Shown here one piece after another: positions 3,057-12,169 of a stretch of 12,241 bases of DNA; the first letter of the stretch is position 1, and every line of letters starts with the position of its first letter. The stretch is from an uncultured Pseudomonadota bacterium. GTDB taxonomy: Bacteria > Pseudomonadota > Gammaproteobacteria > Burkholderiales > SG8-41. The position numbers and the translations under genes were made by a program. The notes below the pieces were generated by a model. The model saw only the letters and a list, made by a program, of their open reading frames with translations. It was not told where the DNA came from and searched no databases. The stretch lies in the NCBI GenBank assembly GCA_946885605.1, contig CAMPGR010000118.1, forward strand, positions 1-12,241. The letters run 5' to 3'.

Positions 3057-4157
3057 TTGCGTACAACAATGACGAGTCCCTTGGAATCGCCCACCCCCTC
3101 TCCCATGCAGGACAAGCCTTTCGTGGTGCTGCTCGTTGCGGTATCGCTTGCCTTCGCGTTGATCCTGTGGCCTTTCTATGCGGCGGTTTTCTGGGCGACG
3201 GTTCTCGCCATCCTGTTTGCACCGCTCTATCGCAGGCTCGCGCGAGCGATGCGCCAGCGCTGCTCGCTCGCGGCGTTCTCCACCGTCATACTCATTCTCG
3301 TGCTCGTGATCCTGCCCTCCGCGCTCATCACCGGGATGCTGCTGCAGGAGGGCTTCCAGATGTACGAAAAACTGCGCTCGGGGGAGTGGAACCTCGGCGC
3401 CTACGCAAGGCGGATCTACGAAGCGCTGCCGCCGTGGACAACGGCGCTCCTCGACCGCTTCCAGCTCACGAACCTCAGTGAAGTGCAGGAAAGATTTGCG
3501 GCGGGGCTCAGCCGAGGCCTCCAGTTTCTCGCGGGACAGGCGCTCAATATCGGGCAGAACACGCTCGATTTCGTGGTGAGTTTTTTCATCATGCTCTACC
3601 TGCTCTTTTTCCTGCTGCGCGACGGTCACATGCTGACCCAGCGCATCCGGGCCGCGGTCCCGCTACGCGATGAGCTGCAGCGCAAGCTGTTCCGCAAGTT
3701 CACCGAGGTCATCCGCGCCACGGTGAAGGGCACGATCGTGGTGGCGATCGTGCAGGGATTCCTCGGCGGGCTCATCTTCTGGTTCCTTGGCATCCATGCG
3801 CCGGTCCTGTGGGGCGTCGTGATGGGGTTTCTGTCGCTCCTGCCGGCTGTAGGCACCGGGCTCGTGTGGGTGCCCGCTGCGATTTACCTGCTCGCGACGG
3901 GCTCTGTGTGGCAGGGGGTGGTGCTCATCGCCTACGGCATCCTCGTGATCGGGCTCGTCGACAACCTGCTACGGCCCATCCTCGTGGGCAAGGACACGAA
4001 GATGCCGGACTACGTGATCCTCATCTCGACCCTCGGCGGCATGGCGGCCTTCGGCCTGAACGGCTTCGTGATCGGACCGCTGATCGCCGCGATGTTCATG
4101 GCGGCGTGGGGCATCGTCGCCGCATCGAAGTCGCAGACGTTAGCGGCGCCGCGCTAG
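3057..4157 (+). CDS. AI-2E/PerM family membrane transporter
   Basis: This is a polytopic inner-membrane protein of the AI-2E exporter/PerM superfamily. Members export autoinducer-2, permeate ions or act as Na+/H+ antiporters; the substrate here cannot be told from sequence. With the TTG start it has 366 residues, normal for the family. Two helices near the N-terminus (about 20-55) are followed by a helix near 72-95, a soluble middle region, and a C-terminal block of closely spaced helices. Family-type motifs are LLPAVGTGLVWVPAAIYLL (about 261-279), DNLLRPILVGK (about 302-312) and GLNGFVIGPLIAA (about 333-345). Start choice is uncertain: TTG 3057 has GGAGG at ideal spacing, and ATG 3069 gives 362 residues. 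Its stop overlaps the end of the convergent 127-residue gene by four bases. No functional link to the oxidases is evident. Confidence 0.9.
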   Translation: MRTTMTSPLESPTPSPMQDKPFVVLLVAVSLAFALILWPFYAAVFWATVLAILFAPLYRRLARAMRQRCSLAAFSTVILILVLVILPSALITGMLLQEGFQMYEKLRSGEWNLGAYARRIYEALPPWTTALLDRFQLTNLSEVQERFAAGLSRGLQFLAGQALNIGQNTLDFVVSFFIMLYLLFFLLRDGHMLTQRIRAAVPLRDELQRKLFRKFTEVIRATVKGTIVVAIVQGFLGGLIFWFLGIHAPVLWGVVMGFLSLLPAVGTGLVWVPAAIYLLATGSVWQGVVLIAYGILVIGLVDNLLRPILVGKDTKMPDYVILISTLGGMAAFGLNGFVIGPLIAAMFMAAWGIVAASKSQTLAAPR

Positions 4158-4537
4158 GCGCAGGCCGGAACGAGCCGGATCGGAAAAAGCAGCAGGACGA
4201 TCGCAACGGCCGCGATGGCGTCGCAACCCACGGTCACCGCGAGGCGAAAGCCGTCATCGTGCGGAACTTTCAATTTCCGCAGATAACGAAGCCCGGCGTG
4301 GCCGAGGACGGCGGCCGCGGCGGCGATCGTAATGACGACCAGCGCGGCGAGAAACATGGGCGGGATTCCGGTTTCTGCCGCACCGGGATGGAGCACGCAG
4401 TAAATCGCCGTTGCGACGTAGACCACGAGCAAGTGAATCGCCCACACGAAGAAGCCGAAGGCGAGATCGAGGATGCGGAAGACCGCTTCCGATTCCGGGC
4501 CCGCTTGCGCCCCGGCGTCAGTGCTGAGAGACCGCAT
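4154..4537 (-). CDS. Small membrane protein, last gene of the dehydrogenase-oxidase operon
   Basis: This 127-residue protein has about three or four hydrophobic segments: residues 19-50 with FGFFVWAIHLLVVYVATAIY, 58-84, and 99-127 ending in LLLFPIRLVPACA. The WAIHLLVVY stretch and the ending in a Pro-x-Cys pattern resemble small membrane proteins I associate with the end of caa3-type oxidase operons. That is recollection, not a search result. It may be an accessory or assembly subunit of the oxidase, since helix-bound His is common in heme or copper handling, but no catalytic motif is recognisable. Its ATG overlaps the end of the subunit I+III gene by 20 bases, with AGGA seven bases upstream, so it is almost certainly co-transcribed and translationally coupled. 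Its stop overlaps that of the convergent transporter gene by four bases. Confidence 0.85.
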   Translation of the reverse strand: MRSLSTDAGAQAGPESEAVFRILDLAFGFFVWAIHLLVVYVATAIYCVLHPGAAETGIPPMFLAALVVITIAAAAAVLGHAGLRYLRKLKVPHDDGFRLAVTVGCDAIAAVAIVLLLFPIRLVPACA

Positions 4538-7097
4538 GGGGAAATCCTGCGATGAGAAGCACCGCCGCGATTGCGACCGGCGCGGTGAAGCGCCACCACA
4601 GGAGGCAGAGGCGCAGCGTCAGGCAGTGCCATGCATCCAGCATGCCAACCGCGAGGCGGGCGATGCACCAGAACGCCATGATGGCCCCAATCGCCACGTG
4701 CGCGCCCATGTAACCGAGGAGCGTCCAGACCGCTGCGCCGTAGCTGTGCCGTGTGGCCTCGATGCCGAGGCTCTCGATCCATTCCCAGCCGAGCATCACT
4801 GCGGCGCCCGCAAGAGCCGCCGTCGCGAGCAGGCACAGCACCGTGAGCACGCGCCGTTCACGCTGGTTCATCCGCTCCGCAAGCTCGAAGAAACCGAGCG
4901 CGAGCGCGAGCACGGCAGAGAGAAGGAGCGGCTCGGCGAAGCCCGGCAGCGCCGAGCCGTCGGGCGGCCAGTCGAAGGGTTGTGCCGTCCAGAGAAACAG
5001 GTAGGCGAAGGCAAACGAAGCGACGAGCGCCGCATCCGAGATGAGCAGGACCACGAGACCCCACCATCCGACGCTCTTGTGGCCGTTGCTGTAAAGCGGT
5101 AGTGCGATGCCTCGGCCCGCATCCGCCGGCTGGCGCGGCCGTGGGCGATCCAGCGACCACAGCCAGTAGGCATATGCGGCAGCCGCGATGAGGCCCGCGA
5201 CCACGCCCAGCGCAACCGATTTGATGGTCATCGCGGCGAACATGACCGCGGTCGCCGCCGCCGCGATGAATCCGGTCCAGCCCGGTCCCGGCATCCGCAG
5301 GATTTGCTCGGGTATCGCGCTGATCGGCGCTGTGATGAGCGCTTCGCGCTCGCACGTCGGCGCATCGGGCAGGTAACCGCGGCCGGCGAGCTCATCTTCC
5401 TTGAGATGCTTGTGGTCCCACAGCGGGTAGCGCGAGGTGATCGGGACGAGGCTGCGGAATCCATGCAGCGCGGCGCCCGAAAGCCACTCGAGCGTAGGGG
5501 CATTCCACGGATTGTCGCCGGCGGGCGGGCCGTGCTTTACGTGACCCACGATGTCGATGAGCGCGATGAGGACGCCGATCGCAATGAGCAAGGCGAACGC
5601 CGACGAGACCAGGTTGAGCGCATCCCAGCCAAGACCGGGGGCATAGGTGTAGATGCGCCGCGGCATGCCGAGCAGCCCCGTGAGGTGCATCGGCAGGAAC
5701 GCGCCGTTGAAGCCGACGAACATCAGCCAGAACGCCCAGCGCCCGAGCCGCTCCGAAAGCATGCGCCTGCTGACGATCGGCATCCAGTAGTAGATGGCAG
5801 CGAAAATCGGGAACACCATCCCGCCGAAGAGCACGTAATGAAAGTGCGCGACGACGAAATAGGTGTCGTGCGCCTGCCAGTCGTACGGCACCACGGCCAC
5901 CATCACGCCGGTCAGTCCGCCGACGACGAAAGTGAAAAGAAAGCCGAGGATGAAGAGCATCGGGACGCGAAGCACAGGCTTTCCTTCCCACAGCGTCGCG
6001 ATCCAGGCGAAGACCTGTATGCCCATCGGAATCGAAATGGAGGAGCTTGCCGCCGAGAAGAAGGCGAGCGAGAGCAGCGGCATGCCGGTCGTGAACATGT
6101 GGTGCACCCACAGCCCGAAGCTCAGGAACCCGACCGCAATTGCCGCGAGCACCACCCAGGCGTAACCGGCCAGCGGCGTGCGCGCGAAGGTCGGAACCAT
6201 CATCGAGACCATCCCCGCCGCCGGCAGAAAGATGATGTAGACCTCCGGATGGCCGAAGAGCCAGAAGAGGTGCTGCCAGAGAAGCGGGTCCCCGCCCTTT
6301 GCCGCATCATAGAACGGCATGCCGAACGCGCGCTCGAGTTCGAGCAGCACATCCGCCGCGATGACTGCCGGCATGCCGATCATGATCATGCCGGCCGTCA
6401 CCAGCATGTACCAGGCGAAGATGGGCATCTTGTCGAGGGACATGCCGGGGGCGCGCGTTTTCAGAATGCCGACGATCAGCTCCACGGCGGCAGCGACCGC
6501 GGCGATTTCGACGAAGCCCAAGCCGAGCAACCATATGTCGGCATTGATGCCGGGCGAATGGCGCGGTCCGGTTAGCGGCGGATACATGAACCAGCCGCCG
6601 TCCGGCGCGACGCCGAAAAAGAGGCTCGAGAACACCATCACGCCGCCGATCGCGTACGACCAGTAACCGAGCGCGGAGACCCGCGGAAACGGCATGTCGC
6701 GTGCACCCAGCATGCCCGGCAGCAGCAGCACCGCGACGGCTTCGACGATCGGGACGGCGAAAAGAAACATCATCACCGTGCCGTGCATGGTGAAGAACTG
6801 ATTGTAGGTCGCGGCGTCGATGAACCGCATGTCGGGGTATGCGAGCTGAATGCGCATCAGCAATGCAAGCACGCCCGCGCCGAGGAAGAAGAGGAGCCCC
6901 GTAGCGATGTAGAGGATGCCGATGTGCGAGTTGTTGACCTCCGTGAAGAAGCCGAAGCGCCGCGGGAACGACCATGCGATGCGCAGGCGCTCGAAGCCGT
7001 CGGGGCCGGCGGATTGCGGATAGATCACTCGCATTGCACCCGGCGCACGCTGTTCGTCGGGGCCCGCGATGCCGGGGGCGTCGAGGGGGATGCTCAT
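4518..7097 (-). CDS. ctaD: Cytochrome c oxidase, fused subunit I + III (caa3-type, heme-copper)
   Basis: This is the catalytic subunit of an aa3/caa3-type heme-copper oxidase, 859 residues, with subunit I (about 45-520) joined to subunit III (about 610-859). Ligands are visible: heme a His105 (HGTVMMF) and His420; heme a3 His418 (VVAHFHYV); CuB His283, His332 and His333. GHPEVY at 282-287 supplies Glu285 and the Tyr287 that cross-links to CuB His283. Against classic A-type enzymes the K-channel Thr and Lys are Met358 and Gln361, and the D-channel asparagines are Val123 and Ser141, though Asp134 remains. The ATG at 7097 overlaps the coxB stop as ATGA, so I chose it over a much longer in-frame reading that covers coxB. 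Residues 545-605 form a soluble linker. ctaA, ctaB and ctaG are not in the window. Confidence 0.95.
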   Translation of the reverse strand: MSIPLDAPGIAGPDEQRAPGAMRVIYPQSAGPDGFERLRIAWSFPRRFGFFTEVNNSHIGILYIATGLLFFLGAGVLALLMRIQLAYPDMRFIDAATYNQFFTMHGTVMMFLFAVPIVEAVAVLLLPGMLGARDMPFPRVSALGYWSYAIGGVMVFSSLFFGVAPDGGWFMYPPLTGPRHSPGINADIWLLGLGFVEIAAVAAAVELIVGILKTRAPGMSLDKMPIFAWYMLVTAGMIMIGMPAVIAADVLLELERAFGMPFYDAAKGGDPLLWQHLFWLFGHPEVYIIFLPAAGMVSMMVPTFARTPLAGYAWVVLAAIAVGFLSFGLWVHHMFTTGMPLLSLAFFSAASSSISIPMGIQVFAWIATLWEGKPVLRVPMLFILGFLFTFVVGGLTGVMVAVVPYDWQAHDTYFVVAHFHYVLFGGMVFPIFAAIYYWMPIVSRRMLSERLGRWAFWLMFVGFNGAFLPMHLTGLLGMPRRIYTYAPGLGWDALNLVSSAFALLIAIGVLIALIDIVGHVKHGPPAGDNPWNAPTLEWLSGAALHGFRSLVPITSRYPLWDHKHLKEDELAGRGYLPDAPTCEREALITAPISAIPEQILRMPGPGWTGFIAAAATAVMFAAMTIKSVALGVVAGLIAAAAYAYWLWSLDRPRPRQPADAGRGIALPLYSNGHKSVGWWGLVVLLISDAALVASFAFAYLFLWTAQPFDWPPDGSALPGFAEPLLLSAVLALALGFFELAERMNQRERRVLTVLCLLATAALAGAAVMLGWEWIESLGIEATRHSYGAAVWTLLGYMGAHVAIGAIMAFWCIARLAVGMLDAWHCLTLRLCLLWWRFTAPVAIAAVLLIAGFPHAVSQH

Positions 7098-8074
7098 TGG
7101 AGTGAAGCGAGCCATGCCGCGAGCGCACGCAGCTGCGGCCCGTCCAGCCGATCGTACGACGGCATCGCGTTGCCCGGCTTGAGATGCTGCGCGCCCGCAA
7201 TCCATCCTGCGATGCTGCCCTCGCCGCCGGGGAGCGTGCCGGCGCCTATCGTGCGTCGCGCACCGACTTGCGTGAGGTCGGGTCCGAGGCGGCCTTCGCT
7301 TACGCCGCGCACGGCGTGGCACGCTCCGCAACCCAGGTTGAGAAAATGGTCCCGCCCGGCGCGGTGCTCCGCATTCGCCGGTTCCCGGACCGGCTTGGCC
7401 AGGCGTTCGAGCCATGCGTCGAACTCGGCCCGCGGCACGACGATCGCTTCGAATGCCATCAGCGCGTGCTGCAGCCCGCAGTATTCCGCACACTGTCCGC
7501 GATAGATGCCGGGCGCGCCCACATGAACGAGCATGCGTGTGGTGCGTCCGGGGATCATGTCGGTTTTGCCTGCGATGCGCGGCACCCAGAAGCTGTGGAT
7601 CACGTCGACCGAGCGCAGCAGCAACTCGACGGGCTCGCCCGCCGGCAAGCGCAATTCATTGGCGGTCGCGACCGCGGCGGGCTCGTCCGGTCGCCGGTAT
7701 GAAACTTCCCACCACCAGATATGCCCGGTGACTTCGACGGTGATCCGCGCGCTCGCGCCCGAAGCCCGCGTTTCGTGCCCGACGGTGGAGGTATACGGGA
7801 TGAGGAGTGCGAGTGTCGTTGCGGGAAGCGCAACGCCGCCGCCCCACAAGAACCATTTGCGGTTCGCGACGCTTTGCCGCCTGCGAAGAAAAGGCGCGAG
7901 GGCAAGCAGGGTCACGAGCGCGGTGACGACCACCGCACCCACGTACATATAGAGCCCGAGGACGTGGATCGACGCGGCGGTCGGGCCTGCGGGATCGAGC
8001 ACGGATTGCGGGCCGCTGCACGCAGCGAGACCATGCGCACTCGCAAGCACCAGCGTGGGCGCATCAGCGCGCAC
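7094..8074 (-). CDS. coxB: Cytochrome c oxidase subunit II with fused C-terminal cytochrome c domain
   Basis: This is the electron-entry subunit of the caa3-type oxidase, 326 residues. I choose the GTG at 8074 because GGAG (8082-8085) lies seven bases upstream and the product then begins with a signal-like stretch ending in LAAC (Cys19), a plausible lipobox. Longer readings add an Arg-rich stretch read through the previous gene. Two helices (about 37-61 and 73-94) anchor it. The cupredoxin domain holds His160 and the complete CuA set Cys195, Glu197, Cys199, His203 and Met206 in CAEYCGLQHALM, with the aromatic GHIWWWE patch at 117-123. A mono-heme cytochrome c domain follows, with CGACH at 249-253 and likely ligand Met304 in GNAMPSY. 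The start overlaps the preceding cytochrome gene by 11 bases; the stop overlaps the subunit I start by four. Confidence 0.94.
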   Translation of the reverse strand: MRADAPTLVLASAHGLAACSGPQSVLDPAGPTAASIHVLGLYMYVGAVVVTALVTLLALAPFLRRRQSVANRKWFLWGGGVALPATTLALLIPYTSTVGHETRASGASARITVEVTGHIWWWEVSYRRPDEPAAVATANELRLPAGEPVELLLRSVDVIHSFWVPRIAGKTDMIPGRTTRMLVHVGAPGIYRGQCAEYCGLQHALMAFEAIVVPRAEFDAWLERLAKPVREPANAEHRAGRDHFLNLGCGACHAVRGVSEGRLGPDLTQVGARRTIGAGTLPGGEGSIAGWIAGAQHLKPGNAMPSYDRLDGPQLRALAAWLASLQ

Positions 8075-8987
8075 CCGGCTGCTCCATCTTGCGTTCGCCC
8101 GGTGGCTGCTCGGTCTTCGTCTGTGGCGGTTTCGCCCGTTCACCCGTATCCGGCTCGCCGCCTGGGGGCGGCTTCTTCGAAACGTCCGCGGCGCCCTTGC
8201 CATGCGTGGCGCCGCCCAGGGGTGCGCCTTGCTCCACACCCACGCTGCCCCTGCCTTCATCAGTGGATTTCGTGGTCGGCGGTTCAGCGGGTGCGGTTTT
8301 TTTCGGCGGCGGCGCCTGCACGATGTCGGGCGGTGCCGGTCCGGGCGGCGGATGGCTTGCGTAGTACTGCGCGACCGCGGCGATGTCTGACCCAGGGAGC
8401 GCCGCGACGACGGTGAACATCTGCAGGCCCGCGTCGTTGGTCCTCGTGCCGTCTTTCCACGCGTTGAGCGCGGCGCTCAGGTAGTAGGCGTCGAGGCCTG
8501 CGAGATAAGGGATGTTCGGCGGCTCGCCTTTGCCTCCGGGGCCATGGCAGTTGCGGCACCCCTGCACGCCCAGGGCTTCGTCACCGAGCGTTGCAAGCAC
8601 GCGGCCGCGTTCCGGCACGCGCTCCTTGCGCGCCCGTGCATCGACAGGCGCTTCAGCTCGCGCGTAGTAGCGCGCAACCTCTCGACGCACTTCAGCGGGC
8701 AAACTGCGTGCGATCGGCTCCATCACGCGATTGCGACGGCTGCCGTCCGCGTAGCTGTCGAGCTGTTTGGAGAGGTAGTAGTCCGACTGCCCTGCGATGC
8801 GCGGCGTACCCGAGGCGGCATTCCCTTCGCCGCGGCTTCCGTGGCATCCGATGCATGCCAGTACCGCAGGAGGCGCTTCCGGCGGCAGGCGCTCGGCTTG
8901 CCCCGGCCTTTCCGCGTAAAGCGTGTGCGATACCGCCGCAAGGAGGCTGCCCGCGAGGGCGCGCGCGCTGTGAGCGTGGGCCTTCAT
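8064..8987 (-). CDS. Periplasmic diheme cytochrome c with proline-rich C-terminal tail
   Basis: This 307-residue c-type cytochrome is probably the electron shuttle between the upstream dehydrogenase and the downstream oxidase. Residues 1-25 are a Sec signal peptide (MKAHAHSARALAGSLLAAVS, predicted cut after LYA). Two cytochrome c domains follow: CIGCH at 45-49 with candidate ligand Met89, and CRNCH at 144-148 with candidate Met190. The repeated pattern of PxIAGQ/YLAG, YYL and DG resembles the c4/c553 diheme class. Residues 213-307 are a low-complexity, Pro- and Lys-rich tail without heme motifs or a membrane helix. The ATG at 8987 overlaps the dehydrogenase stop as ATGA. Canonical gluconate-type dehydrogenases use a triheme cytochrome subunit; this one has two hemes and the third may be supplied by subunit II. 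Confidence 0.93.
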   Translation of the reverse strand: MKAHAHSARALAGSLLAAVSHTLYAERPGQAERLPPEAPPAVLACIGCHGSRGEGNAASGTPRIAGQSDYYLSKQLDSYADGSRRNRVMEPIARSLPAEVRREVARYYARAEAPVDARARKERVPERGRVLATLGDEALGVQGCRNCHGPGGKGEPPNIPYLAGLDAYYLSAALNAWKDGTRTNDAGLQMFTVVAALPGSDIAAVAQYYASHPPPGPAPPDIVQAPPPKKTAPAEPPTTKSTDEGRGSVGVEQGAPLGGATHGKGAADVSKKPPPGGEPDTGERAKPPQTKTEQPPGERKMEQPGAR

Positions 8988-10753
8988 TTGCCCATCAACG
9001 GCCCCGGTGACTTGAGGTACTTCGTTACGATCGCATTCGCCGCCCAGTACGCGAGCATGCCCACCGTATCCGTGGGGTTGTAGCACGCGTTCTGCGGGAA
9101 GTTCGAGGCGCCGATCACGAAGACGTTCGGCACATCCCAGCTCTGCAGGTAGCGGTTCACCACGCTCGTTGATCGATCGGTGCCCATGATGGTGCCGCCG
9201 GTGTTGTGAGTGGTCTGGTACTCGGTGATGTCGTACGGGCCCTTTCGCGGGACACCGCTGACGATCTGGCCGCCCATCGCCCGCGCGATCTCGAGCGTCT
9301 TTTCGGTACAGAATGCCGACATCCTCAAGTCGTTCTCGGGGAAATCGAACGTGATGCGCAAGAGGGGCAGGCCCCACGCATCCTTGTACGTGGGATCGAG
9401 GTCGAGATAGTTCCAGCGCGTCGCAACCGAACTCCCGTGCACGTTGAGCGTGGAAGTGTGGTTATAGTGCCGCACCACAGCCTCTTTCCACTTGCTTCCC
9501 CACTTCGGCGTGCCGGGCGGCACGGGATGGAATCCGATCGGGCGCCCATTGGTCATGATCTCCCCGATATAGGCGCCGCCGATGAAGCCATGCGGCGCAT
9601 GGTCGAAGTTGTCGCCCGCAAAATCGGCGATGACCGTGCCGTTCGCGCCCGAGCGCATGAAAGGATTGATGTTCACGCTCTCGTCGTAGAACACCCGCGG
9701 ATAGCTCATCGTCTGGTACGCGTAGTTGCGTCCGACGACACCCTTGCCGGTCGTCGGGTCGTACGGCGTTCCGATACGAGAGAGGAGCAACAGGCGCGTG
9801 TTGTTGAGCGCATACGCGCCCACGATGACGAGCCGCGCACGCTGCTCGATCTGCTCGCCGCGCGCATTCACGTAGGTCACGCCCGTCGCCGTCTTGCCGC
9901 TGCTGTCCAAGTCGATGCGCAGCACGTTGCAGCCGGTGCGGAGCTCGAAGTTGCGATCCCTGAGCAGCACGGGCAACAGCACCGTCTGCGGCGCGGACTT
10001 CGCGTAGTGCTCGCACGCGAAGCGCTCGCAGTAGCCGCAGAATGTGCACGTGTGGAGGGTCAGTCCCTCCGGATTGGTATAGGGCTGGCTCAGATTGCAC
10101 GAGGGTTGCGGATAGGGATGATAGCCGAGCCTTTCTGCGGCCCTCCGGAAGATCGCGGAGCCGTAAGGTTCCTTTTGCGGCGGAGTGGGATACTCGCGTG
10201 AACGAGGGTCTTCGAACACGTTGCCACCGGGAATCTTTTCCCCTTTGATGTTGCCGGCTTTGCCGCTCACGCCCAGCAGGTACTCGAAGCGGTCGAAGTA
10301 CGGCTCCATCTCGGCAGCGCTAATCCCCCAGTCCTGGATGGTGATGTCATCCGCGATGAACTTCCTCCCATAGCGCGCGATGGTGCGCGTGAGCTGCTGG
10401 AAATCATCCTCCTGGAAGCGAAACGTCTCGCCGTTCCAGTGCACCATCGAGCCGCCGAGACCCGAGCCCGGCAGAAAGCCCGCAAGGCGGCGCATGGGGA
10501 GCGCCGCGTCCTTTACGGTGTGCCGGAACGTGAGCGTTTCCTTCGCCGCGTCCTGCATCAACGCCTTGCGCACGGCATAACGCAGTTCGTCGTGGATCTC
10601 GGGCGCCTGGAAGTCCGGCACGGTATGGCGCGGTTCGCCGCGTTCGAGCCCGACCACCTTCAGTCCCGCGCGGGTCAACTCCCTGCCGAGCACCGTGCCC
10701 ACGAGGCCCACCCCGATGAGGACGGCGTCGACTTCGGCAGCAGGCGCAGCCAT
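8984..10753 (-). CDS. GMC-family flavoprotein dehydrogenase with four-cysteine cluster motif (gluconate/sugar dehydrogenase alpha-like)
   Basis: This is the FAD-containing catalytic subunit of a periplasmic dehydrogenase, 589 residues. The N-terminal dinucleotide fold shows GVGLVG at 14-19 and Glu37 at the end of the second strand. LPGSGLGGSMVHWNG (94-108) is the second FAD contact of the GMC family. HNTGG with His516-Asn517 and NPTDT with Asn559 supply the active-site pair. C236-x2-C239-x2-C242-x4-C247 suggests an iron-sulfur cluster, as in bacterial FAD glucose dehydrogenases, which carry a 3Fe-4S cluster. The substrate could be gluconate, an aldose, a polyol or another alcohol; sequence does not decide. 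It has no signal peptide, so it probably hitchhikes through Tat with the small subunit encoded three bases upstream. Electrons would pass to the diheme cytochrome encoded next. Confidence 0.93.
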   Translation of the reverse strand: MAAPAAEVDAVLIGVGLVGTVLGRELTRAGLKVVGLERGEPRHTVPDFQAPEIHDELRYAVRKALMQDAAKETLTFRHTVKDAALPMRRLAGFLPGSGLGGSMVHWNGETFRFQEDDFQQLTRTIARYGRKFIADDITIQDWGISAAEMEPYFDRFEYLLGVSGKAGNIKGEKIPGGNVFEDPRSREYPTPPQKEPYGSAIFRRAAERLGYHPYPQPSCNLSQPYTNPEGLTLHTCTFCGYCERFACEHYAKSAPQTVLLPVLLRDRNFELRTGCNVLRIDLDSSGKTATGVTYVNARGEQIEQRARLVIVGAYALNNTRLLLLSRIGTPYDPTTGKGVVGRNYAYQTMSYPRVFYDESVNINPFMRSGANGTVIADFAGDNFDHAPHGFIGGAYIGEIMTNGRPIGFHPVPPGTPKWGSKWKEAVVRHYNHTSTLNVHGSSVATRWNYLDLDPTYKDAWGLPLLRITFDFPENDLRMSAFCTEKTLEIARAMGGQIVSGVPRKGPYDITEYQTTHNTGGTIMGTDRSTSVVNRYLQSWDVPNVFVIGASNFPQNACYNPTDTVGMLAYWAANAIVTKYLKSPGPLMGK

Positions 10754-10756
10754 GAC

Positions 10757-11473
10757 TTATTTGCCTTTGGGGTGGGTGTGGCCGTGGATCGCGCCGGACG
10801 CGTTCTGGGCGATGCTCATCGGCGGCCGCTTGAACGCGATGCCGTGCTGATCGACGAACTCGTAGAAGTTCGCGTAGGCGCCAGGGAAGCCGACGAGTTT
10901 CCAGCCCACCATGTCCTTGTTGCCACCGTAGATCGGATCGGCGAAGAAGCCCTCGATCGTGAGTTCCAGCAGCGACTCGAAAAAGACGTTCGACGGCACG
11001 CCGCCCAAGTCGCGCGATTCGCTTTCGAGCGCGCGCAGGTAGGCATCCTGCTCAACGGGCGCGAGCCTGCCGAGGTTCTCGGTGCCGCGCTTCCGCATAT
11101 CCTCGGCGACGCCGCGGAGCGCGTTGCGGAAGAGTTCCGCCGGTGTGAATCGCAACTGGTAGCCCTGTTCGGGCTTGCCGGGCTGCCAAGGGCCGCTGCG
11201 ATAGAGCCCCTCGCCCGCGCCCCACGGCCCGGTAAGCTGGCGATCCATGAAACGCGGAACATCGGCTTCGAGCGCGCCTGGCCCGCTTTCGTCGGCGGGG
11301 ATAAGACGCGCCACGGCGGCTTCGACGAAGGCCGCTTCGTCGGCGGTGAAGAACGCATAGCGCGGCCCCTCGCCCGCGTTCCCTGTCGCCTGTCGTTCGC
11401 ATGCCGGAACGGCGGCGACCGCGGCGATCGCACCCGCACTTTTCAGGAACGCGCGCCGGGTGGGGGGTGCCAA
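10757..11473 (-). CDS. Gluconate 2-dehydrogenase subunit 3-like, Tat-exported small subunit
   Basis: This 238-residue protein begins with a twin-arginine signal (TRRAFLKSAG, Arg6-Arg7) followed by an Ala-rich core ending in VPAC at Cys25, which could be a lipidation site. The mature part fits the gluconate 2-dehydrogenase subunit 3 family: it starts with FFTADEAAFVEAAVARLIPAD and has RFMDRQLTGPWG and FFADPIYGGNKDMVGWKLVGFPG. Family members pair with the GMC flavoprotein and carry it across the inner membrane. The start is TTG at 11473, preceded seven bases upstream by AAGGAGG. The nearby ATG at 11480 is in a different frame. The gene is first in the six-gene operon, and only three bases separate its stop from the dehydrogenase ATG. 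The partner substrate cannot be told from this subunit. Confidence 0.92.
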   Translation of the reverse strand: MAPPTRRAFLKSAGAIAAVAAVPACERQATGNAGEGPRYAFFTADEAAFVEAAVARLIPADESGPGALEADVPRFMDRQLTGPWGAGEGLYRSGPWQPGKPEQGYQLRFTPAELFRNALRGVAEDMRKRGTENLGRLAPVEQDAYLRALESESRDLGGVPSNVFFESLLELTIEGFFADPIYGGNKDMVGWKLVGFPGAYANFYEFVDQHGIAFKRPPMSIAQNASGAIHGHTHPKGK

Positions 11474-11770: not shown

Positions 11771-12169
11771 ATGGGCACTGAGAAACCCAAAAAAATAGGG
11801 ACGGATTTTGGATTGTTCTATCCGGTCGGCCATATCGTTGCCGCGTTCCCGAACCAGCAGGACGCGCTTCGCGTGCGCGACGATCTGATGCGCGGCGGTT
11901 ACGATGCTGACGACTGCGTCGTCTACAACAGCGAAGAAGTGGCGCGGATGATCTCGGAGAATCTCGAAGAGGCGGGCTGGCTGGCGCGACTGGGCAAGAC
12001 CGACGAGGCGCTGCAAAAGCATCTGGAAGCGGCGCAGCGGCACGACGCCTTTGCGCTGATTTATGCGCCGTGCGATACCTGCGCGGAGCGCGCCATGAAT
12101 GTCATCCGGCGCGTGCCCTTCGAGTTTGCGCACCGCTACCGCCGCTTTGCGATCCAGGTCATGACGTAG
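11771..12169 (+). CDS. Conserved-type hypothetical protein, possible stress-protein-like fold
   Basis: This 132-residue soluble protein has no signal peptide or membrane helix. The central stretch, VGHIVAAFPNQQDALRVRDD at 19-38 followed by a GGYDADDCVVY strand, resembles the small alpha/beta domain of general-stress (YflT/17M-like) and related proteins, where a VxVF strand is followed by a helix and a GY-x-DD turn. This is a visual resemblance only. An acidic helical region follows (about 55-93), then ALIYAPCDTCAERAMNVI with a C101-x2-C104 pair, and a basic C-terminus (HRYRRFAIQVMT). The CxxC pair could bind metal or be redox-active, but two cysteines alone are weak evidence. The start has GAGGAG six bases upstream. 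It is transcribed divergently from the dehydrogenase-oxidase operon; a functional link is not shown. Confidence 0.85.
   Translation: MGTEKPKKIGTDFGLFYPVGHIVAAFPNQQDALRVRDDLMRGGYDADDCVVYNSEEVARMISENLEEAGWLARLGKTDEALQKHLEAAQRHDAFALIYAPCDTCAERAMNVIRRVPFEFAHRYRRFAIQVMT

Follow-up and report, generated by a model that had tools for sequence, protein, structure and literature searches.

A compact gene cluster in the window, the whole stretch of 12,241 nucleotides analysed here, is to be read, with moderate confidence, as an operon for a short and largely self-contained electron transport chain leading from the periplasm to oxygen. The cluster runs along the minus strand from position 11473 to 4154 and, according to the open reading frames and their translations, consists of six closely packed genes, all on this strand. 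The first encodes a Tat small ('hitchhiker') subunit of the Gluconate_2-dh3 family (10757..11473), followed by a GMC flavoprotein dehydrogenase of 589 aa (8984..10753), a diheme c4-type cytochrome of 307 aa (8064..8987), the oxidase subunit II with a CuA site and a C-terminal heme c (7094..8074), the fused oxidase subunit I+III, or COX1-3 (4518..7097), and a small membrane protein (4154..4537). The small subunit and GMC genes are separated by a gap of 3 bp, and each of the following junctions is an overlap: 4 bp between GMC and cytochrome, 11 bp between cytochrome and subunit II, provided that the latter begins with the GTG at 8074 (which is likely, not certain), 4 bp between subunit II and subunit I+III, and 20 bp between subunit I+III and the small membrane protein. 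The initial annotation had proposed this order and span with a spacing of 3 bp and overlaps of 4 to 20 bp; the coordinates and domains agree with it, and every measured junction lies within these values. A sigma-70 scan of the window returned 0 promoter-like sites against 1.1 in shuffles, and the 6 terminator-like sites in the window are at chance level (5.4 expected). The judgement that the cluster is more than chance is based on its recurrence in other loci and not on a computed expectation.

Several other reading frames surround the cluster. The 3′ end of an AI-2E family transporter gene on the plus strand (3057-4157) shares 4 bp with the small oxidase gene, and locus L193 has a homologue of this transporter (60%) roughly 4 kb beyond the start of the oxidase. 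The start of an FtsH-like reading frame was recognized by eye at positions 1-480, and an FtsH-like ORF was likewise seen upstream of the oxidase in locus L094. On the other side of the cluster, a divergent plus-strand ORF (11771-12169) begins with MGTEKPKK.

The small subunit is assigned to its family by Pfam (Gluconate_2-dh3, PF13618, E 3.7e-29), and its TAT_signal score of 21.9 bits is slightly below the Pfam cut-off of 22.7. The gene starts with a TTG codon seven bases downstream of AAAGGAGG, and the protein contains the motif RRAFLK together with a lipobox-like VPAC, the latter read by eye. Since Cys25 is the sole cysteine of the window small subunit, the inter-subunit disulfide of the BcGDH type is unlikely here; among related small-subunit rows, a cysteine within the aligned part is found in 16 of 53. 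A search among solved structures found no relative of this subunit.

The GMC protein is recognized by both GMC_oxred_N and GMC_oxred_C of Pfam and has a His in the stretch THNTGGTIMG. Its best solved match is the large subunit of fructose dehydrogenase (E 2.2e-25), and the substrate is probably sugar- or alcohol-like. Four cysteines at positions 236, 239, 242 and 247 form the motif CxxCxxCx4C, a probable iron-sulfur cluster site; the catalytic subunit of the known heterotrimers has a 3Fe-4S cluster, and their acceptor is ubiquinone. This motif is present in 46/46 GMC rows of other loci, many of which were found by a pattern containing part of it; the 46 include the five oxidase-linked rows L103, L118, L145, L154 and L167, which were found via the oxidase. 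The regular expressions used for the GMC active-site motifs were too narrow to base a claim on, one of them giving 'none' in 41/46 rows.

The third component belongs to the Cytochrom_C family of Pfam and carries two CXXCH motifs. Its best solved matches are 5lo9, a 526-residue 'Cytochrome C', and 6q2u, a cytochrome c4 (E 1.7e-21); the C-terminal tail of about 95 residues is rich in Pro and Lys. Two heme c domains and the similarity to c4 place this protein with the cytochromes c4, and thus, as read from its sequence, it is a c4-like diheme cytochrome and not the triheme subunit of the gluconate type. Heterotrimeric GMC dehydrogenases that combine a triheme cytochrome with a Tat small subunit are well known (PMC9727119). 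The window module resembles the glucose, fructose and gluconate dehydrogenases (8hdd, 6a2u, 7w2j) in the combination of a GMC protein, a Tat hitchhiker small subunit and a c-type cytochrome, and differs from them in its diheme c4-like cytochrome and in the Cys motif CxxCxxCx4C.

The oxidase part begins with subunit II, in which COX2 and Cytochrom_C domains are joined, with the CuA motif CAEYCGLQHALM and one CXXCH (CGACH). Among the relatives of subunit II, the CuA motif is present in 101/107 rows and CXXCH in 94/107. Subunit I+III matches COX1 of Pfam (E 3.8e-147) and gives no match to Pfam COX3; its residues 49-845 align to the fused subunit I+III of Thermus caa3 (2yev). The small membrane protein matched no Pfam or NCBIfam family, and tblastn detects its homologues 3′ of the oxidase in L094 (54%), L104 (31%), L113 (30%), L192 (47%) and L193 (51%). 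The family caa3_CtaG, which is often, not always, encoded nearby, was found in none of the nine window proteins covered by the Pfam scan.

The active site of the oxidase is conserved, and the residues of its proton channels are altered. The window subunit I+III contains the His ligands, Glu285 and Tyr287, and has Gln361 at the position of the K-channel Lys (K362 in Rhodobacter numbering). The Glu of the HPEVY motif is the A1 signature. This Glu, the Tyr and five of the six His ligands are present in 120/120 proteins among the matches listed (H102 in 116, with 4 gaps). In 76 loci, the HPEVY Glu is found in 75 and replaced by Asp in 1, and the Tyr and four His are found in all 76. The K-channel position is occupied by Gln in each of the 120 proteins among the matches listed and in 116/116 loci. 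For comparison, 18 other COX1 genes of the GMC genomes were used (the 20 loci L040-L059 minus two short rows), and these have 14 Lys, 2 Thr, 1 Ser and 1 Gln at the same position. The Gln is therefore not wholly confined to the window oxidase family. Two of these other COX1 proteins, from L041 and L056, carry Trp where the A1 Glu would stand, and their K-channel residue is Ser or Thr.

Similar changes are seen in the D channel. Among the matches listed, 118 proteins have a residue at the N121 and N139 positions, and Asn occurs at neither: the first is V, M or I, and the second is S, with one G. Two glutamates, Glu197 and Glu206, are invariant both in the proteins among the matches listed (120/120) and in the loci (116/116), in a stretch that resembles a membrane helix. 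Twelve controls, picked from the 18 for Lys and Glu so that their Lys is there by construction, have Gly and Asn at the 197 and 206 positions. The K-channel Gln, the missing D-channel Asn and the two invariant glutamates together suggest that proton uptake in this family is probably not canonical. Set beside the A1-type caa3 oxidases, the window enzyme has the COX1-3 fusion, a subunit II with CuA and heme c, and the expected Glu, His and Tyr, and its family lacks the K-channel Lys and D-channel Asn. The window shares the fusion of subunits I and III with Thermus caa3, and its family is marked by the Gln and by Glu197/Glu206. K-channel variants of archaeal COX1 are discussed in PMC8239418, where seven K-channel losses in family A are counted under one hypothesis; the Gln variant may already be classified in the supplement of that paper.

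At least 8000 proteins were scored as possible oxidase relatives, and the 120 among the matches listed include names such as Microvirga, Gemmatimonadaceae, Paracoccus, Ramlibacter and Bryobacterales. The window-type oxidase was found in 38/298 genomes of the family of G007 (threshold 1e-240), in 10/369 of the class of G001 and 17/385 of the class of G002 (both at 1e-220), in 33/48 of the genus of G275, which we infer to be Microvirga (1e-200), and in 1/247 of the phylum of G008 (1e-190). The thresholds thus differ between the samples, and the counts in the large samples may be low, as scoring there was limited to each genome's top 2 or 3 candidates. The two class samples are presumably Gamma- and Alphaproteobacteria. 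The resulting 116 oxidase loci comprise 42+10+21 places, 39 further ones, one from the phylum of G008 and three plasmid loci, and some of them are cut by contig ends.

A search of these loci by tblastn with the window proteins places a GMC gene beside the oxidase in 14/116, with the window-type module in 12 and another GMC in 2. The 12 module loci come from the family of G007 together with the genus of G275, from the class of G001 and from the class of G002. The initial annotation had regarded its proposal as void if the dehydrogenase genes took this position in only this genome; with module and oxidase family side by side in 12/116 loci from three samples, that is not the case. In 11 of the 12 (L103, L118, L145, L154, L197, L198, L200, L202, L204, L206 and L208), the genes are collinear and follow on one strand as small subunit, GMC, c4-like cytochrome, cytochrome-like stretch, subunit II and subunit I+III; the further cytochrome-like stretch is absent from the window. 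In the remaining one, L167, the dehydrogenase part is divergent from the oxidase.

The recurrence is dominated by one genus, Microvirga, whose sample provides 9/11 collinear loci, with L118 from the class of G001 and L145 from the class of G002. At E <= 1e-100, the Microvirga sample contains 16 GMC places in 15/48 genomes, of which 9 are beside the oxidase and 7 elsewhere; one of the nine loci (L208, genome G1069) has an in-frame stop within the oxidase frame. In the class of G001, the GMC gene was found in 2/369 genomes, namely G323, where it is beside the oxidase, and G001 itself, where it is on two contig ends and which was chosen as the sample centre for having it. Two Microvirga loci, L192 and L193, present a different arrangement, in which a GMC of another type and a four-CXXCH cytochrome precede the window-type oxidase; the GMC of L192 is close to the dehydrogenases of glucose and fructose and matches 8hdd at E 2.9e-158. 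The other 102/116 oxidase loci, some of them cut by contig ends, gave no GMC match within the DNA fetched, so the oxidase also serves other donors. In L098, L105, L106, L110, L112, L115, L129 and L131, a three-CXXCH cytochrome ORF adjoins subunit II in place of the GMC module. The clustering of neighbouring ORFs included spurious ones and serves for rough module structure only.

The history of this pairing can be followed on the trees of both partners. The GMC tree was built from the window and 24 rows picked from the 46. All five oxidase-linked rows other than the window fall into one supported clade; the window itself is placed elsewhere, beside Reyranella and Nevskia. The tree needs 2 changes of oxidase linkage. 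Two trees were made for the oxidase (COX1). The first has 58 rows, a simpler model and three long rows flagged; the second has 27 picked rows, a mixture model and omits those three. In both, the GMC-linked oxidases are scattered, and at least 4 changes are forced by the starred branches. A single clade of GMC-linked oxidases is rejected by the AU test, which took in 7 of the 12 GMC-linked loci, with the window (8 rows, p 3.7e-85) and without it (7 rows, p 4.1e-40). As the GMC-linked oxidases tested are not one clade, repeated gain or repeated loss of the pairing is probable: module and oxidase family would have come together on more than one occasion, or once at an early stage and then separated often. 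Counts of linkage changes do not separate gains from losses, and one gain with several losses can account for them as well.

The proposed electron route begins outside the cytoplasm. The small subunit would carry the folded GMC flavoprotein through Tat, and it may anchor GMC to the membrane via a lipid on Cys25. The FAD of GMC would accept two electrons from the substrate, which is probably sugar- or alcohol-like, and release them one at a time through the four-Cys motif, where an iron-sulfur cluster is probable, to the diheme cytochrome of the c4 type. From the c4 hemes, the electrons would move to the heme c of subunit II, to CuA and finally to subunit I+III, whose heme/CuB site would reduce oxygen. 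Electrons on such a GMC-c4-caa3 route would not need to pass quinone or bc1. Beyond the observed gene order, domains, cofactor motifs, recurrence and scattered linkage on the oxidase tree, we infer each transfer step, the exclusivity of the route and the substrate from sequence. Direct, quinone-independent electron flow is plausible on these grounds, and the position of the c4-type cytochrome, between the dehydrogenase and a CuA- and heme c-bearing subunit II, is consistent with delivery at the cytochrome c level. Cytochromes c4 can donate to oxidases. Periplasmic chains that bypass bc1 are also familiar from methanol or ethanol dehydrogenases, PQQ enzymes whose electrons pass through cytochrome c to an oxidase; the proposed chain would resemble these in the level of delivery and differ from them in using a GMC flavoprotein instead of a PQQ enzyme. 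Downstream of the caa3 operon and on the same strand, cydAB (528-2910) encodes a cytochrome bd-type oxidase, a second terminal oxidase in the window, which speaks against the self-contained chain.

A different explanation is that electrons from the dehydrogenase-c4 unit enter a common pool of cytochrome c or quinone, that caa3 drains this pool, and that the genes are clustered through co-induction. This appears unlikely, and it is nevertheless the strongest of the alternatives. A scan with six peptide patterns identified 39 loci of GMC relatives, several on short contigs, and cox genes were found in none of the DNA stretches around them; the four plasmid GMC loci likewise showed no cox genes, and both results speak against strict coupling. 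In the closest relatives, Reyranella L001/L002 and Nevskia L004 (66-67%; L009, at 67%, is cut), GMC stands together with a small subunit and a c4-like gene, and their stretches gave no match to the oxidase. The dehydrogenase-c4 unit can therefore work with other oxidases, and the oxidase is an optional partner. Related triheme GMC enzymes are quinone-linked. PMC9727119 gives fructose dehydrogenase as EC 1.1.5.14. On the other side, three observations are what the direct route predicts: the linkage is scattered on the oxidase tree, a second GMC type occupies the same site in Microvirga, and subunit II carries a heme c itself. Pooling is still compatible with all three.

A stronger form of the direct route, already suggested in the initial annotation, is a stable dehydrogenase-c4-caa3 supercomplex, in which the Pro-rich tail of c4 would act as a tether. 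The overlapping genes in functional order and the Pro/Lys-rich tail of the cytochrome speak for it, but gene order by itself does not show a complex, and we consider this form improbable. A chance neighbourhood in a transfer-prone stretch, for which the occurrence of both oxidase and GMC genes on plasmids could be cited, is very improbable, given that 11 other loci share the strand and order of these genes and that 9/16 GMC copies of the Microvirga sample are beside the oxidase.

The proposed direct chain from the GMC dehydrogenase to the oxidase has partial parallels among described operons. In Degli Esposti et al. 2014 (PMC4013037), COX operon type a has a COX1-3 fusion, and type a-II, whose fusion is of COX1 with COX4, often includes PQQ-dependent dehydrogenases. 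The window is like type a in its COX1-3 fusion and like type a-II in having dehydrogenase genes inside the oxidase operon, so a dehydrogenase in this position is not unique in kind. Unlike the PQQ dehydrogenases of type a-II, the window genes encode a Tat-exported GMC with its small subunit and c4, combined with a COX1-3 oxidase. Both COX1-3 fusions and PQQ dehydrogenases in COX operons are thus known, and no paper on a GMC/c4/caa3 cluster was found in the open-licence literature, judged in part by the starts of abstracts; the accessible parts of PMC6431628 and PMC6472588 contain nothing on a GMC-caa3 cluster.

A wider generalization is possible, though on the doubtful side: at least two GMC subfamilies would have been joined repeatedly to one COX1-3 lineage with rewired proton input, giving a modular quinone-independent chain. 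If this is true, the oxidase would serve substrate oxidation in the periplasm as a dedicated electron sink, and its proton pumping would be unusual or reduced. The cluster indicates a class of short respiratory chains whose flavin dehydrogenase may feed an oxidase of its own. Because the partner oxidase family consistently lacks the K-channel Lys, proton uptake without this residue in an A-type oxidase would be directly testable.
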